From Tepidisphaeraceae bacterium (GTDB taxonomy: Bacteria; Planctomycetota; Phycisphaerae; Tepidisphaerales; Tepidisphaeraceae), in the NCBI GenBank assembly GCA_035998445.1, contig DASYHQ010000017.1:62001-126000 (forward strand): 64,000 nt of DNA, written 5' to 3'. Numbering within the stretch: the stretch's first letter is position 1; every line of letters starts with the position of its first letter. The position numbers and the translations under genes are program-made. This document shows, piece after piece, positions 12,556 to 20,672 of this stretch. The notes below the pieces were generated by a model. The model did no database searches. It worked only from the letters and a program-made list of their open reading frames with translations, and had not been told where the DNA came from.

Positions 12556-12696
12556 ACACGTAGCATGGGCGTCCCGCCCATGACGGTGGCCGAAGCGGAA
12601 TGCATTGTTATTGCCGACAGACTTGCCGATGCCCGCGGCAACTAATCGAGTTCTTCGTCCTGCTAACGGTCATGGGCGGGACGCCCATGCTACGTG
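12556..12696. repeat. family-1 paired palindrome, copy A
   Basis: The left unit CGTAGCATGGGCGTCCCGCCCATG and the right unit CATGGGCGGGACGCCCATGCTACG are reverse complements of each other and each is itself a palindrome. They are about 85 bases apart. A diverged relative (GGGTGCCACGGGGTGGCTTG...) follows at about 12735-12770. This fills most of the 303-base gap between the receiver gene and urtE. No gene was seen in the gap. Confidence 0.85.
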
Positions 12697-12827: not shown

Positions 12828-13523
12828 TCACACGCTCAGGTGCCGCGCGATCACGTCCGACTCCAGTTCGCTGGTCTTGCCCTGTGCCACCACGCTGCCG
12901 CGGTTCATGATGTAGAACATCTGGCCGAACTCGCGGACGAAGTCGAGGTACTGTTCGACGAGCACGACGGTCATGTCCCGCTCGGTCACCAGCTTGCGCA
13001 GCACGTGGCCGATCTGCTGGATCACGTTGGGCTGAATGCCCTCGGTCGGCTCATCCAACAGCAGCACCTTCGGGTCGCCCGCCAGCGCACGGCCGATGGC
13101 CAGTTGCTGTTGTTGGCCACCGGACAGGTCGCCGCCGTTGCGGTTGGCGAACTGTTTGAGGATGGGGAAGAGCTCGAAGATGTCGTCCGGCACGGCCCGT
13201 TTGCCGTCGCTGCGGGCCTGCAGGCCGACGCGCAAATTCTCCATCACAGTGAGCTTCGGGAAGATCTGCCTGCCCTGTGGCACCAGCGCCAGGCCCGCCT
13301 TGGCACGCTTGTTGGCCGGCAGCGGCGTCACGTCACGATCGCCGAGCGCGATCGCCCCGCTGCTGCTGGTGGCGATGCCCATGATGCTGCGCAGCAGCGT
13401 CGTCTTGCCGACGCCGTTGCGCCCCATCACGCAGGTGATCTGGCCTGGCCGCATGACCATGTTGATGTCGTGCAACGCCTGAACGGCGCCGTAGTGGAAG
13501 TTGAGGTTTTTGAGTTGAAGCAT
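12828..13523 (-). CDS. urtE: urea ABC transporter ATP-binding protein UrtE
   Basis: A 231-residue ABC ATPase of the LivF/UrtE class. Visible motifs are Walker A GRNGVGKTT near residue 35, signature LSGGQQQQLAIGRAL, Walker B VLLLDEPTEGIQP and the switch His region. The opening MLQLKNLNFHYGAVQAL is characteristic of UrtE. Longer in-frame starts reach back into a repeat and were rejected. It is the last gene of the urt operon but is separated from urtD by about 650 bases of repeats, which is unusual. It may need read-through or its own promoter. Confidence 0.93.
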   Translation of the reverse strand: MLQLKNLNFHYGAVQALHDINMVMRPGQITCVMGRNGVGKTTLLRSIMGIATSSSGAIALGDRDVTPLPANKRAKAGLALVPQGRQIFPKLTVMENLRVGLQARSDGKRAVPDDIFELFPILKQFANRNGGDLSGGQQQQLAIGRALAGDPKVLLLDEPTEGIQPNVIQQIGHVLRKLVTERDMTVVLVEQYLDFVREFGQMFYIMNRGSVVAQGKTSELESDVIARHLSV

Positions 13524-13581
13524 GGTGTAGTGCGTTATACGACCGACCCGTTCGTCATCCTGAGTGCCACGCCCGCTCGAA

Positions 13582-13722
13582 CCGTGGCATGGGCGTCTCG
13601 CCCATGCGTGTGGACTGGAACAGAGAATACGATTTCTAAACTGGCCGCGCCGATCATGCGGCTGAAACAAATTTTGTCTTCCGGCCTCACACAAGCATGG
13701 GCGAGACGCCCATGCCACGGTC
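13582..13722. repeat. family-1 paired palindrome, copy B
   Basis: CGTGGCATGGGCGTCTCGCCC on the left and GGGCGAGACGCCCATGCCACG on the right, about 80 bases apart, each palindromic and together an inverted pair. It is the first of three repeat elements in the urtD-urtE gap. Confidence 0.85.
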
Positions 13723-13770
13723 GGAGCGCACGTGCCGGGGTCTGATACCGTTGCGATTCGGCAAGGCGAT

Positions 13771-13873
13771 TGTCATCCCGAGGAGAGCGGTAGCGACCCG
13801 AGGGATCTCCCTAGGCTGGCGTCGTCAGACGTTTGAGATCCCTCAGGTCGGCAAGCCTCCCTTCGGGATGACA
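13771..13873. repeat. family-2 inverted repeat (TGTCATCCCGA...), copy 1
   Basis: Imperfect inverted repeat of about 100 bases. The left arm begins TGTCATCCCGAGGAGAGCGG and contains GACCCGAGGGATCTC. The right arm has GAGATCCCTCAGGTC and ends CTTCGGGATGACA. Three further full copies occur at 19995, 58681 and 62489. Confidence 0.85.
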
Positions 13874-13945
13874 CGCGTTGCAGGGCATCCTGGATTCTCT
13901 GCTCACCTGCACACCTGAATCGCAGAGATCATTCGGAGTACCTCA

Positions 13946-14158
13946 GAGGGTGTTAAAGAACAGCGCCGCGTCCGGTCCGACCGTGGCATGGGCGTCTCGC
14001 CCATGCGTGTGGTGGGACCTGAAGACAGCATTGGTTGCAGCGGCTTGGTCGGCGCAGCGGCCAACGAACGAAGCTTCTCCTTGCAGTCCACATGCATGGG
14101 CGAGACGCCCATGCCACGGCAAGGCAGCCGCGACCGTGTTCTTTAACACCCTCTCAGG
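13946..14158. repeat. nested repeat: family-1 pair inside outer inverted arms, copy C
   Basis: Outer arms GAGGGTGTTAAAGAACA and TGTTCTTTAACACCCTC are perfect 17-base reverse complements about 180 bases apart. Between them sits a complete family-1 pair (left at about 13980-14010, right at about 14092-14120). The right outer arm ends 20 bases before the urtD stop, so the element could act as a terminator for urtD. The 654-base urtD-urtE gap holds elements B, family-2 copy 1 and this one, and no gene. Confidence 0.85.
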
Positions 14159-14177
14159 ATGACGTAAGAACTCCAAC

Positions 14178-15080
14178 CTATCTCCCCAAATACGCCTCGA
14201 TCACATCCTCATTATTCGACACCTCATCCAGCGAACCCTCCGCCAGCACCCTGCCGTTGTCCAGGACGGTCACGCGCGAGTTCAGCCGGCGGACGAAGTC
14301 CATGTCGTGCTCGATGCAGATGATCGTGTGGCTGCCCTTTAGCTCCAGCAGCAACTCGGCCGTCAGTTCGGTCTCCTGATCGGTCAAACCCGCGGCGGGT
14401 TCGTCGACGAGCAAGAGCTTGGGCTCGGCGATGATCAGTTTGCTGATGGCCAGCCATTGGCGCTGGCCGTGGCTTAGGCTGCGCGATGGCGTATGCAGGT
14501 GGTCGGCCAGGCGCACGCGCTTCAGGATGGCGTGGATCTTATCGGCGTTGTCGCTCGTGGGGCGGCCACCCATGTTCAGCAGCATGGTGCTGAGCCGGAT
14601 CGCCGCAATGGCGGCCACGCCGTTGGCACGGCTGCGGCGGTTGGCGAACCAGTCGGGCGTGCCGACCCGGCGCGTGGGGTTCGGCAGCGCCAGCAGCATG
14701 TTCTCCCAGACCGTCAGCGAATCGAACACGTTGGGAATCTGAAACTTCCGCCCGATGCCGCGCTGGGCCCGCTGCGTGTCGCTGAGCGCCGAGATGTCCT
14801 CCCCGGCGAAGTAGACCTTGCCGGTGGCGGGCTTGGTCAGGCCGCTGATGACGTCGCACATGGTCGTTTTACCGGCGCCGTTGGGGCCGACGACGACGCG
14901 CAGCTCGTTATGGCCGACGCCAAGGTCGGTGATGTCCAGCGCCTTGAAGCCGTCGAAGACGGCCGTCACGTCCTGCAGGAACAGAGCGTATCGGCTGGAC
15001 CACAACTGGCTGTTGCGCGGGCCTTCAATGCGATAGTGATGCTGGTGCGGGTCGTTTGCCAGCACGTTTGCGTCGGTCAT
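14178..15080 (-). CDS. urtD: urea ABC transporter ATP-binding protein UrtD
   Basis: A 300-residue ABC ATPase of the LivG/UrtD class. Motifs are Walker A GPNGAGKTTMCDVISG, signature SLSHGQRQWLAISKLI and Walker B LLLVDEPAAGLTDQETE, all standard for UrtD. It is some 40 residues longer than most UrtD, because of an N-terminal extension (NVLANDPHQHHYRIEGP) before the usual LFLQDVTAVFDGFKAL start and a 15-residue insert around PNPTRRVGTPDW. Its ATG overlaps the stop of the UrtBC fusion (ATGA), so translation is coupled. Confidence 0.94.
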   Translation of the reverse strand: MTDANVLANDPHQHHYRIEGPRNSQLWSSRYALFLQDVTAVFDGFKALDITDLGVGHNELRVVVGPNGAGKTTMCDVISGLTKPATGKVYFAGEDISALSDTQRAQRGIGRKFQIPNVFDSLTVWENMLLALPNPTRRVGTPDWFANRRSRANGVAAIAAIRLSTMLLNMGGRPTSDNADKIHAILKRVRLADHLHTPSRSLSHGQRQWLAISKLIIAEPKLLLVDEPAAGLTDQETELTAELLLELKGSHTIICIEHDMDFVRRLNSRVTVLDNGRVLAEGSLDEVSNNEDVIEAYLGR

Positions 15081-18046
15081 GCCGACCTCCCATCTGCGAT
15101 CTTTGGTTCGGCCGCAAGCGGCAGGGGCAGCGGGTCGGTCGCGCGGCCGCGGCGCTCGCTCAAGAAGCCGCTGATGACCTTCGGAATGCTCATGATGCCC
15201 CCCGGCAGCAGCAGCGGCACCAGGATGAAGAGCCCGCCGAGCACGAAGTACCAATACTGCGGCGCGACGCTGGTCATGTATTCGTAAACGAGGCTGACGA
15301 AGATCGCGCCGATCACCGCACCCCACAGCGACCCGCGCCCGCCCACCGCCACCCAGGCGACCACCTGAATGGATGCGATGGCGGCGATCATGTGCGGGTT
15401 GATGATGCCCTTCTGCGGCACGTACAGCATGCCCCCCACCGCCGCGAACATCGCCGCCAGCGTGAAGGCGGCCGCCTTGTAGGCCCAGGTTTGGTAGCCG
15501 ACGAACCGCAGGCGCGTCTCGTCATCGCGAATGGCCACCAGCACGCGGCCGAAGCCGGAGTTGACCAGCCACTTGGCGAGCATCAGCACGATTATCAGCG
15601 TGACGAACGACACGATGTACAGCCAGAACCGCGTCTGCATGAACTTGCCCGCGGCGGCGTCGGCCTGAATGGGGAAGCCGAGAATGTGGGTGAAGTTGGT
15701 CAGCCCGTTGGTGCCGCCGAGTTTCAGGTCGTTCTTCTGGAAGATGAGCCAGAACGCGACGGTGATCGCCTGAGTGAGGATGGAGAAGTACACGCCGCGC
15801 ACCCGGCTGCGGAACGTGCTGAGGCCAATCAACAGTGCCAGCGATCCCGGCAGCACGAGCCCCAGCACGAGCGTGAGCGGGAACGATTCGAACATCGAGA
15901 GGAACCACGGCGCCTTGCGGCCACTGACGTCGGACATGACGTAAGACAGCGCCATGGGAATGCCATCGGGCGCCTTCGGGCCGTAGTTGATGAGATACAA
16001 CCCCATGCAGTATCCGCCGAGCGCGAAGAAGAGGAACTGCATGAGACTGAGGATGCCGATGTAGCCCCAGATAAGGTCCAAGCCGATCGCGCAGATCGCA
16101 AACGCCAGCACGTAGCCGAGCTTGTTGACGTACTCGAGGCTCATCAATCCTGTGCCGTACAGGAACGGCACGAGCACCAGCCCGAGGAACACCAGCGCCC
16201 CGCCGAGCATGTAGTCGCCCTTGCGGGTGGTGCTGGTAAGGAACGGCATCGACGTGCGATCGGCCTGATCGGCGGCGCGGCCCTTATCGGGAAACAAACC
16301 CGCCGGCCGGCGCTGCATGAAGAAGATGACCGCCACCAGCGCCGCGACCTGCGCCCAGGTGGCATCGAAGATGCGAAGGGGTTGTTCGATGAGGACGATC
16401 GGTTCGAGCAACTTTTCGGTGAAGCCCAGACCTAAGCCGGAGAAGATCACCCCCGCCAGCTTCCCGACGCCGCCGACCACGACGGTGAGGAACGACTTCA
16501 CGACGAAGGTCTGCCCGATCTCCGGCGACGGATTGCTGGTGAGCACGATTCCGTAACCGGCCAAACCCGCGAGCCCCGCGCCGAAGGCGAAGGTGACCAT
16601 GTCGACGAGGCGCGTGTTGACGCCCAAGGCCTGCGCCATCTCGCGGTTTTGGACCGTGGCGCGGATCATCAGACCGAGGCGCGTGTAGCGGAAAACTGCG
16701 ACGACGCTGAGCAGGCAAAATACGGTTAGAGCGATCAGGAATAGGCGATTGTACGCGAAATTTACGTCCTGCATGACCTCCAGGCTGCGCCCCGCCCAGG
16801 TGGGCTTGCGCATGCCGAGATTATCGCTGAATTGGTTGCGAACGGCCTGAATTAGGACATAACTGACGCCAATCGTCGCTAATAGCGAATCGAGCGGCCG
16901 CTTGTACAGCCAGCGGACGATCGACACCTCGATCAACAGCCCCACGGTCGCAGCGGTCAGGAACGAGACCGGGAACGCGATCACGTAGTACCAGTTGAAC
17001 CATTCCGGTGGCAGCACCTGCCCGACGATGAGGAACTCGTGGCACGCCCACGTGGAGACCGCCCCGATCATCAACATCTCGCCGTGGGCCATGTTGATGA
17101 CGCCCATCAGCCCGAACGTGATCGCAAGCCCAAGCGCCAGCAGCACATAAATCGACCCGGCGCTCAGGCCGAAGAAGATGTTTTTGATCCAGTTGGTGAC
17201 CGAGAGGTGCCACTCGATCTTCTCGATGGCCGTCCGGTAGACCGCAGCGTCGGCAGGGGCGAGGTTGGGTTGGTTGGACTGGTCCTTCAGTAGATCCAAC
17301 GCGCGGATGCTTTCCAGTTCCCCCAGCGCCGCAACGGCGGCTAGCTTCTGCTCGGAAGTGACCGCGGGATCAGTACTTGCGGCGACAATCAAATTGACGC
17401 TTTCACTGGCGGTGTGACGGACCTTGGCATCCGGATCAGACTCGGCGATCTGCCGAAGTTCGGGCAGCGCGTCGGCCTGACGGCGGTTGCCAAGTTCCCT
17501 TGCGGCCACGCGGCGCACCGCGGCGTCGTCCACCTTTAACCCAAGCACCCGCAACGCATTAAGCACCTGCGTCCGCACCGGCCGCGGTGGAGCGAAGTCC
17601 TTCACGTCCGCCTTCGGCACGGTCGCCAGTGGCACGCCGAGCGGCGCGCCGGCCTCGTCGGTCTCGGTGAACAGGTCATAGACATCGGCGACCTGCCCCT
17701 GACTCGGCTCATCCCTAAACCCTGGCAGATAAACGAATTGCCCATCCCACTGGTACAGCGTGCGATCCTGAATGCGCTGGAAGACCCGCAACACCCGCGC
17801 GTCCCGCATCGCCTCCAGTTCCTTCAGCGCGGCTAAGCCGCTCTCACGTTCGCTAAGCGCGGGAAGACGCGCCCGGATCTGATCTTCGACCGACACATCT
17901 CCTGCAGCGGCCACCGGTTGCGTCGCCGGCGCGCCCTGCGCGAGCGAGGGTCGGGCCGTCGCGCCGCTAATGAGCGCGATTGTGACTGCTATTATTGTGC
18001 TCCACCGCCGGGGATCGAAAGAGTCCAGCCGCACCCGTTCCTCCAT
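15077..18046 (-). CDS. urtBC: fused urea ABC transporter permease UrtB-UrtC
   Basis: A single 989-residue polypeptide combining two permeases that are normally separate. The order is: signal peptide (IIAVTIALISGATARPSLAQ), HEAT-like periplasmic region at about 60-285 typical of long UrtB, then the UrtB permease (GSIYVLLALGLAITFGLMGV, MAHGEMLMIGA) to about residue 588. The UrtB C-terminal phrase RRPAGLFPDKGR then runs without a stop into the UrtC permease (LDLIWGYIGILSLMQ, GRGSLWGAVIGAIF) to the end. A Met at the old UrtC start position (plus-strand 16247-16249) has no clear ribosome binding site. The start chosen is MEERVRLDSFDP; a GTG four codons in is an alternative. It is coupled to urtD by a 4-base overlap. 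Confidence 0.92.
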   Translation of the reverse strand: MEERVRLDSFDPRRWSTIIAVTIALISGATARPSLAQGAPATQPVAAAGDVSVEDQIRARLPALSERESGLAALKELEAMRDARVLRVFQRIQDRTLYQWDGQFVYLPGFRDEPSQGQVADVYDLFTETDEAGAPLGVPLATVPKADVKDFAPPRPVRTQVLNALRVLGLKVDDAAVRRVAARELGNRRQADALPELRQIAESDPDAKVRHTASESVNLIVAASTDPAVTSEQKLAAVAALGELESIRALDLLKDQSNQPNLAPADAAVYRTAIEKIEWHLSVTNWIKNIFFGLSAGSIYVLLALGLAITFGLMGVINMAHGEMLMIGAVSTWACHEFLIVGQVLPPEWFNWYYVIAFPVSFLTAATVGLLIEVSIVRWLYKRPLDSLLATIGVSYVLIQAVRNQFSDNLGMRKPTWAGRSLEVMQDVNFAYNRLFLIALTVFCLLSVVAVFRYTRLGLMIRATVQNREMAQALGVNTRLVDMVTFAFGAGLAGLAGYGIVLTSNPSPEIGQTFVVKSFLTVVVGGVGKLAGVIFSGLGLGFTEKLLEPIVLIEQPLRIFDATWAQVAALVAVIFFMQRRPAGLFPDKGRAADQADRTSMPFLTSTTRKGDYMLGGALVFLGLVLVPFLYGTGLMSLEYVNKLGYVLAFAICAIGLDLIWGYIGILSLMQFLFFALGGYCMGLYLINYGPKAPDGIPMALSYVMSDVSGRKAPWFLSMFESFPLTLVLGLVLPGSLALLIGLSTFRSRVRGVYFSILTQAITVAFWLIFQKNDLKLGGTNGLTNFTHILGFPIQADAAAGKFMQTRFWLYIVSFVTLIIVLMLAKWLVNSGFGRVLVAIRDDETRLRFVGYQTWAYKAAAFTLAAMFAAVGGMLYVPQKGIINPHMIAAIASIQVVAWVAVGGRGSLWGAVIGAIFVSLVYEYMTSVAPQYWYFVLGGLFILVPLLLPGGIMSIPKVISGFLSERRGRATDPLPLPLAAEPKIADGRSA

Positions 18047-18171
18047 TCTGCCCACGGGCGTTCGAGCCCATCGCTCCTCAATGGCACAGACAGGGTTGTC
18101 TGCGCCTCCCCCTTGCTCCCGGCGCCTCATCCCTCCAGACGAGATACCGCGCCCCACGCCTCAGGCAAGGC

Positions 18172-18234: not shown

Positions 18235-19509
18235 TTACTTCTTCGGGCCGCCCGAGGGCTCCATCGCGGCCAGTTGTTCGGGTGTGTGCAGCAGCTTGCT
18301 GTAGCTGTCGGGCTCGACCAGGCCGTCGCTGTTCCAGACGATCTTGAACTGACCGTCGGCCTGAATCTCACCGATGTACACCGGCTTGTAGGTGTGCTGG
18401 TTCGACTCGTGCATTTTCTTCTTGCCACCCGGCGCATCGAACTCCATGCCGTACACGGCTTTGCGCACCGCGTCGACGTCGAACGAGCCGGCCTTCTCGG
18501 CGGCGGCGGCCCAGACCTTCACGCCGTAGTACGCGGCTTCGATCGGATCATCCGTCACGCGGCTGTCGCCACCGGGCAGGTTGTTCCGCTTGCAGAAGTC
18601 CTTGAACGCCTGCACGAACTTCTTGTTCTCGGGCGTGTCGATGCTCTGGAAGTAGTTCCAGGCGGCCAAGTGGCCCACCAGCTTGCTCGTATCCATCGCG
18701 CGCAGCTCGTCCTCGGCGACCGAGAAGGCGATGATCGGGCAGTCGTCGGCCGTCAGGCCCTGGTTGGCAAACTCGGTGTAGAACGGCACGTTCGAGTCGC
18801 CGTTGATCGTCGACAGCACGACCGCGCCCCCACCGGCGCTGAACTCCTTAATTTTGCTGACGATCGTCTGGTAATCCTGATGATGGAAGGCGGTGTACTC
18901 TTCCATGATGTTCGACTCGGGCACGCCGCTCTTGATCAGGAACGCCTTCAGCACCTTGTTGGCGGTGCGGGGGAAGACGTAGTCGGTGCCCAGCAGGTAG
19001 AACTTCTTGGCGCCCAGTTCCTTGATCGCGTAGTCGGCCGCCGGCACGAGCTGCTGATTGGGGCTGGCGGCGGTGTAGAAGACGTTCAGCGACTGTTCCT
19101 CACCCTCGTACTGCACGGGGTAGAACAGCAGCGCGTTGTACTCCTCGAACGTCGGCAGGCAGCTCTTGCGGCTGACCGAGGTCCAGCAGCCAAACGTGGC
19201 GGCGACCTTGTGCTGCGTGATCAGTTCCTTGGCCTTCTCGTTGAACAGCGGCCAATCGCTGGCAGGGTCGACGACCACCGGCTCGATCTGCTTCCCGAGC
19301 ACGCCGCCCTTGGCGTTGATCTCCTCGGCGGCCATCAGCACCACGTCCTTCAGCGACGTCTCGCTGATCGCCATCGTGCCGCTCAGCGAGTGCAGCACGC
19401 CGATCTTCACCGTCTCCTGCGCCATCGCGCTCGAGGCGAACGCGATACCGCACGTGGCGACCGCCAGCGCGAGGCTGCGCGTGGCCTTGGTCAGCAAACT
19501 CTTCATCAT
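18235..19509 (-). CDS. urtA: urea ABC transporter substrate-binding protein UrtA
   Basis: A 424-residue periplasmic binding protein. The signal peptide is 1-30 (ending ASSAMAQ). The mature part ETVKIGVLHSLSGTMAISET is diagnostic of UrtA/FmdD-type proteins. Further family phrases are CWTSVSRKSCLPTFEEYN, FYPVQYEGEEQSLNVFYTGA-like, YLLGTDYVFPRTAN and ARVTDDPIEAAYYGVK-like. The ribosome binding site GGGAGGA is 7 bases before the first ATG. It is the first gene of urtA-urtBC-urtD-urtE. No urease genes are in the window, so urea breakdown must be encoded elsewhere. Confidence 0.96.
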   Translation of the reverse strand: MMKSLLTKATRSLALAVATCGIAFASSAMAQETVKIGVLHSLSGTMAISETSLKDVVLMAAEEINAKGGVLGKQIEPVVVDPASDWPLFNEKAKELITQHKVAATFGCWTSVSRKSCLPTFEEYNALLFYPVQYEGEEQSLNVFYTAASPNQQLVPAADYAIKELGAKKFYLLGTDYVFPRTANKVLKAFLIKSGVPESNIMEEYTAFHHQDYQTIVSKIKEFSAGGGAVVLSTINGDSNVPFYTEFANQGLTADDCPIIAFSVAEDELRAMDTSKLVGHLAAWNYFQSIDTPENKKFVQAFKDFCKRNNLPGGDSRVTDDPIEAAYYGVKVWAAAAEKAGSFDVDAVRKAVYGMEFDAPGGKKKMHESNQHTYKPVYIGEIQADGQFKIVWNSDGLVEPDSYSKLLHTPEQLAAMEPSGGPKK

Positions 19510-20150: not shown

Positions 20151-20352
20151 CTCACGTAGCACGGGCGGCCCGCCCGTGGAGCCGCGGTACTCCGCGGTGC
20201 CGGACGGTACTCCGTCTGAGCTAAGAGCGCAAGCGATCTGTACTTCCGACTCGTCAGTCAGTCCCTTCGCTGGCGCGATTGCTGATTCGGATGGAGTACC
20301 ATCCGATGCGTCGGGGTACCGACGCCATGGGCGAGCCGCCCATGCTACGGGA
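20151..20352. repeat. compound family-1 element, copy D, with six palindromes
   Basis: Left arm: CACGGGCGGCCCGCCCGTG, then CCGCGGTACTCCGCGG, then GGACGGTACTCCGTCT. Right arm: GGATGGAGTACCATCC, then GCGTCGGGGTACCGACGC, then CATGGGCGAGCCGCCCATG. Each block is a separate palindrome and the two arms mirror each other in order, with different bases but preserved pairing. CACGTAGC and GCTACGG mark the outer ends. Confidence 0.8.
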
Positions 20353-20375
20353 AGATCGAGCCCGCCTCCGCTCCG

Positions 20376-20672
20376 ACCGTGGCAGGGGCGTCTCGCCCAA
20401 TGCTCGTCGTAAGGCCGAGCGATGCTATCAACGGGTCACCGCTTGACCGGCGCGGCAAGCCAAGTATCAATTTCCTAATTCCAATCCACATGCATGGGGC
20501 GAGACGCGGTTCTGTTGAAAACACTCATTGTTGAACGCCAAGACGCCAAGAACGCCAAGGTAGGAAAGAAGAGATAAGCGGATTCTCTTGCCGTCTCTTC
20601 GCTTGGCGTCCTCGGCGTCTTGGCGTTCAATGTTCTTTTCAACGGAGCCGCAAGACGCCCATGCCACGGTAA
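20376..20672. repeat. family-1 paired palindrome, copy E, interrupted
   Basis: Left unit CCGTGGCAGGGGCGTCTCGCCC at 20377-20398. The right unit CATGGGGCGAGACG stops at 20506 and resumes as CCCATGCCACGG from 20658. The break is filled by a separate inverted-repeat element. Confidence 0.8.
20507..20649. mobile_element. small non-coding inverted-repeat element inserted in copy E
   Basis: A 143-base insertion bounded by GCGAGACG on the left (20499-20506) and GCAAGACG on the right (20650-20657), an 8-base near-duplication with one mismatch. Its ends are inverted (CGGTTCTGTTGAAAA and TTTTCAACGGAGCC), and inside them lies a longer inverted repeat GAACGCCAAGACGCCAAG...CTTGGCG...GTCTTGGCGTTC. It has no coding capacity, so it would be mobilised in trans, like a MITE. 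Confidence 0.6.

Follow-up and report, generated by a model that had tools for sequence, protein, structure and literature searches.

A single frame for both permease halves

In the Tepidisphaeraceae bacterium studied here, urtB and urtC form one continuous open reading frame. We consider it very probable that this frame encodes a single-polypeptide permease of a urea-type ABC importer, which stems from a one-time joining of overlapping urtB and urtC genes, was kept in a clade of Planctomycetota, folds as a pseudo-dimer similar to FhuB, and goes together with an insertion in UrtD that appeared on the same branch.

The fused gene, supported by the list of open reading frames, by NCBIfam and by nine other genomes, occupies positions 15077..18046 on the minus strand of the window (the whole stretch of 64,000 nucleotides that was analyzed) and ends with a stop codon at 15077-15079. 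It encodes 989 residues if translation starts at the ATG at 18046; the open frame itself reaches back to a GTG at 18157. From N to C terminus, the protein consists of a signal segment, a HEAT-like domain, the UrtB permease, a linker of about 28 residues, and the UrtC permease. Both permease parts score above their curated NCBIfam cutoffs—330.6 bits against TIGR03409 for UrtB (cutoff, 250.3) and 348.7 bits against TIGR03408 for UrtC (cutoff, 296.2)—and the joint, RRPAGLFPDKGR-AADQADRTS-MPFLTSTTRKGD, contains no stop codon. The preliminary description of UrtB and UrtC in one 989-residue frame is therefore borne out. Its span holds as well, to which we add the strand, left unstated there, and the N-terminal ~250 residues, which it did not mention.

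These N-terminal residues (signal segment plus HEAT-like domain) are part of a long form of UrtB: long UrtB proteins of other bacteria match the query from about residue 60 on and cover the N-terminal extension. The HEAT-like domain (17276..17890, minus strand; residues ~53-257) follows the signal or transmembrane segment and is recognized by Pfam HEAT_2, by the helices of the AlphaFold model, and by matches to alpha-solenoid structures; it would face the periplasm. Next come the UrtB permease domain (16277..17185; residues ~288-590; TIGR03409 and PF02653), the linker between the last UrtB helix and the first UrtC helix (16226..16309; residues ~580-607), and the UrtC permease domain (15188..16132; residues ~639-953; TIGR03408), all on the minus strand. 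According to the alignment with the fused relatives, an ATG (Met600; 16247..16249, minus strand) marks the former start codon of UrtC.

Operon context and the link to urea

The operon runs on the minus strand in the order urtA-[urtB-urtC]-urtD-urtE. UrtA, a substrate-binding protein of the urea type, is encoded at 18235..19509 (TIGR03407, 563.3 bits; cutoff, 492.75), and the ATP-binding subunits UrtD and UrtE are encoded at 14178..15080 (TIGR03411, 300.3 bits; cutoff, 304.1) and 12828..13523 (TIGR03410, 326.3 bits; cutoff, 285.8), respectively, all on the minus strand and with the starts of urtD and urtE taken from the sequence reading. The stop codon of the fused gene and the start codon of urtD overlap in an ATGA at 15077-15080, and the fused loci have the gene order A-BC-D-E. 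A scan for promoters and terminators returned nothing above chance.

Four subunits, namely, UrtA, UrtB, UrtC, and UrtE, exceed the curated urea-specific cutoffs. UrtD scores slightly below its own, yet TIGR03411 is by far its best family match, and the extra residues described below may lower the score. This shortfall could also be taken as a hint that the importer carries a related small amide or an amino acid instead of urea, as could the presence in the same genome of another urt-like operon, unfused and located on contig C5, given that one of the two could have diverged. We consider such a substrate unlikely, in view of the four subunits above the urea-specific cutoffs and of the proximity of the urt operon to the urease alpha gene in six fused genomes (G002, G009, G015, G584, G299, and G181) and in the split relative G235. 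All eight fused genomes tested contain a urease alpha gene, near urt in 6 of the 8. In the genome under study, this gene (ureC) is located on a separate contig, C61, and the link to urea is indirect; urea is nevertheless the substrate that the importer would be expected to carry.

The second operon of this genome (L147:5276-10925 on C5) has the order A-B-C-D-E and falls on another branch of the tree. Another feature of the region is a set of palindromes with the core GGCATGGGCGTCTCGCCCATGC, arranged as inverted pairs about 110 bases apart, at 13540-14160, 12557-12696, and 20325-20400 of the window. The window contains seven copies where 0.01 would be expected, and a large share of the 654 bases that separate urtD from urtE is taken up by these palindromes; the frames of the two genes overlap in relatives, G002 among them.

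Occurrence of the fusion across genomes

A search through the family, order, class, and phylum identified the same fusion in ten planctomycete genomes from 8 genera and 3 families (G000, which is the genome under study, G002, G009, G015, G299, G181, G393, G584, G1621, and G1654). Related genomes, which the preliminary description had named as a place to check, thus provide nine further cases, with proteins 54-71% identical to that of G000, and this recurrence excludes chance. Two of the assemblies consist of few contigs (2 in G393 and 6 in G584), both being 99% complete. Two copies are disrupted: the UrtC part of the G015 gene is interrupted by an in-frame TAA about 45 residues past the old start of UrtC, and the G009 gene undergoes a frameshift near its end. 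Both retain an intact linker, and we therefore read them as fused genes that are either damaged or poorly sequenced. In G009 (L154:7489-12715), frame changes break urtA, urtBC, and urtD alike, yet the proteins show good conservation, which suggests either errors in the sequence or a decay that set in recently.

One long frame would also result if a mistake in sequencing or assembly masked a frame break between two overlapping genes, and this appears to have happened in a Tolumonas metagenome-assembled genome (MAG), where a single 900-amino-acid frame spans UrtB and UrtC (L134:903-3602). The two genes are separate and overlap in five relatives (87-98% identity), and we rejected this frame as a true fusion; it is probably a frameshift error at the overlap. 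That the planctomycete fusion has such an origin is extremely improbable, as ten separately assembled genomes share it with a linker that can be aligned, and the eight fused proteins tested form one clade.

Outside the Planctomycetota, 398 genomes of Pseudomonadota were surveyed, 138 of which had a UrtC match. Among the longest frames of the matches listed, no UrtB-UrtC fusion was found in the 27 loci checked: the long open UrtC frames (~590-992 amino acids) were dismissed as candidates, as UrtB lies in another frame in 27/27 loci, although a rare fusion could have escaped a check of the listed matches. Likewise, the 388 genomes of Verrucomicrobiota (41 with a UrtC match) had no frame of sufficient length. 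The literature searched contained no report of a UrtB-UrtC fusion, although absence there is weak evidence. Fused permease halves are already known in general, and the UrtB-UrtC fusion is a variant of them for which this literature gave no report.

The fusion arose once, probably from overlapping genes

A tree of UrtB plus UrtC was built with eight of the fused proteins (G1621 and G1654, identified afterward, are absent from it). All eight form one clade with 100/100 support, and the split G235 is its sister. In G235, the nearest relative of the fused clade, urtB and urtC are separate and overlap: UrtB ends with ...FPDKGRLADA* and UrtC begins with MPEAV, both within the same ATGCCTGA. The fused joint reads FPDKGR-AADQADRTS-MPFL and the like, that is, the UrtB tail, a short new stretch, and the old start of UrtC. 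The Met-Pro of this old start is kept in 6 of the 10 fused proteins and is also present at the UrtC start of G235. Together, the single fully supported clade, its split sister with overlapping genes, and the retained Met-Pro show that the fusion arose once and was then kept in this clade of Planctomycetota. A tree constrained to hold the split G235 inside the fused clade, as expected if its genes had separated again later, was tested in one arrangement and rejected (p-AU 1e-5). The two genomes added later have the linker pattern GRAANAATGEDMPF in common with their relative G584.

Family f1 and family f26 both conserve the linker core ADQAD, and most codon differences in the linker are silent (65 silent and 33 replacing, summed over 15 nonindependent pairs), suggesting that at the sequence level the ADQAD stretch behaves as translated and selected protein. 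It is conceivable that two proteins are still made from the fused gene, if translation initiates internally at the former start of UrtC or if the linker is cleaved. The ATG at this start in 6 of the 10 fused genomes and the predicted disorder of the linker would agree with such a scenario, but we consider it very unlikely: no Shine-Dalgarno-like stretch is apparent just before the Met600 ATG in the genome under study, the corresponding position is Ala in 3 of the 10 fused genomes and lies in a shortened segment in G009, and ADQAD is conserved as protein across two families. Internal initiation at Met600 may be possible in this genome, but judging from the alignment it would not be an option kept throughout the clade. 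We favor one translated protein.

Predicted structure and comparison with known systems

The AlphaFold2 model of the fused protein, computed from 37 alignment rows that were mostly stop-read-through translations of neighboring urtB and urtC genes, reached a mean pLDDT of 83.8 and a pTM of 0.80. Model residues 585-606, in the linker, have low pLDDT and poor order. The top Foldseek match of the model was E. coli FhuB, and VIA-align superimposed 511 residues over both FhuB halves with an rmsd of 6.7 and a Z of 12.3, which is within the chance range of helical bundles; matches of a single half to HmuU, BtuC, and PsaC had scores like that of FhuB. In the model, both halves are predicted to fold as one FhuB-like intramolecular pseudo-dimer, joined by a flexible segment.

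FhuB, the permease of the E. coli ferrichrome importer FhuCDB (PDB accession no. 7lb8), likewise has two ABC-importer permease halves per chain, and the predicted UrtBC pseudo-dimer aligns across both of them. In contrast to FhuB, the fused protein belongs to another sequence family (BPD_transp_2) with another substrate, and its halves are the distinct UrtB and UrtC, preceded by a HEAT-like domain. Pfam found BPD_transp_2 and HEAT_2 only, placing the fused protein outside the FhuB siderophore permease family by sequence. A second point of reference is the branched-chain amino acid transporter, whose LivH and LivM are normally encoded by two genes. PF02653 is common to both systems, with UrtB resembling LivH and UrtC resembling LivM, but the fused protein is far under the LivH and LivM cutoffs.

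The system closest to the one described here is UrtABCDE (TIGR03407-03411), with which it shares UrtA, UrtB, UrtC, and UrtE by sequence, a probable UrtD, the A-B-C-D-E order, and a nearby urease in related genomes. It departs from it in that UrtB and UrtC are one polypeptide and in that UrtD is about 28 residues longer in its helical subdomain; the separate urtB and urtC of the canonical five-gene urt operon are replaced by a single frame that is conserved in ten genomes. Neighboring urt subunits are also fused in the UrtC-UrtD frames of two Planctomycetota genomes and a Nitrospirae MAG, although there a permease is joined to an ATPase and here a permease to a permease. The planctomycete UrtC-UrtD frames are 788 amino acids long (L152:6913-9276 in G185 and L151:1046-3409 in G155, minus strand), and their UrtC holds an inserted piece of ~100 residues that matches the AcrB family (ACR_tran, 32.8 bits; gathering score, 28). 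The Nitrospirae frame (L081:5450-7471) has 674 amino acids.

Overall, a fused urea permease, as first proposed for this region, is upheld by a conserved fusion within a urea-transporter operon and by the predicted FhuB-like pseudo-dimer. What goes beyond that proposal is that the fusion is an inherited trait of a clade, that an extra segment of UrtD accompanies it, and that the overlap of urtB and urtC is already present in the nearest split relative.

An insertion in UrtD accompanies the fusion

The extra residues of UrtD form an insertion of about 28 residues in the helical subdomain (14598..14681, minus strand), which was found only in fused operons: all nine fused operons that could be read have it, and the 53 distinct UrtD sequences from unfused operons all lack it. 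The count of nine comprises eight fused operons plus that of G1621, the contig of G1654 ending too early to be read. The distance from a landmark after the Q-loop to the signature motif is 74-76 residues in UrtD from fused operons, versus 36-47 and nearly always 46 in the 53 unfused sequences. UrtD of the split sister G235 lacks the insertion. Given that fusion and insertion appeared on the same branch, their association amounts to a single evolutionary coincidence and should not be counted nine times; a functional link between the two is suggested by it but not proven. In the UrtD model, the insertion contains a helix that is predicted at low confidence.

In ABC importers, the helical subdomain of the ATPase touches the permease. 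It is tempting to speculate that fusion and insertion are a functional pair, with the insertion in contact with the fused permease or its linker. The insertion might dictate the position of each ATPase beneath the two halves, so that the importer would be asymmetric and obligately ordered, or it might provide a regulatory contact that ordinary urea transporters do not have; we regard this as a possible but doubtful reading.

Proposed mechanism and implications

In the scenario that we propose, urtB and urtC overlapped in an ancestral operon, a small frame change at this overlap would have joined them once, and the joined gene would have been retained in the Planctomycetota clade. Its product would place the HEAT-like domain in the periplasm, followed by UrtB and UrtC, with the flexible linker presumably on the cytoplasmic side. 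The UrtB and UrtC halves would pair within one chain, as in FhuB, while UrtD and UrtE would bind below the permease and UrtA would bring urea from above. The UrtD insertion, having arisen on the same branch, may serve to fit this subunit to the fused permease or to the linker. Because both halves are on one polypeptide, UrtB and UrtC would be fixed at 1:1, and one assembly step would be removed. From sequence and model together, the system is most likely a putative urea importer whose two permease halves are covalently joined in a pseudo-dimer of the FhuB kind.

A search of the PDB by sequence found no chain that matches the fused permease at an E value of 0.01, and a single chain could therefore ease structural work on the UrtB-UrtC permease. 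The fusion and the UrtD insertion also provide a clear example of two components of a single machine changing on the same branch. Finally, the fused protein would offer a natural joined form of a heteromeric urea importer, in which the stoichiometry and arrangement of UrtB and UrtC may be read from one chain.
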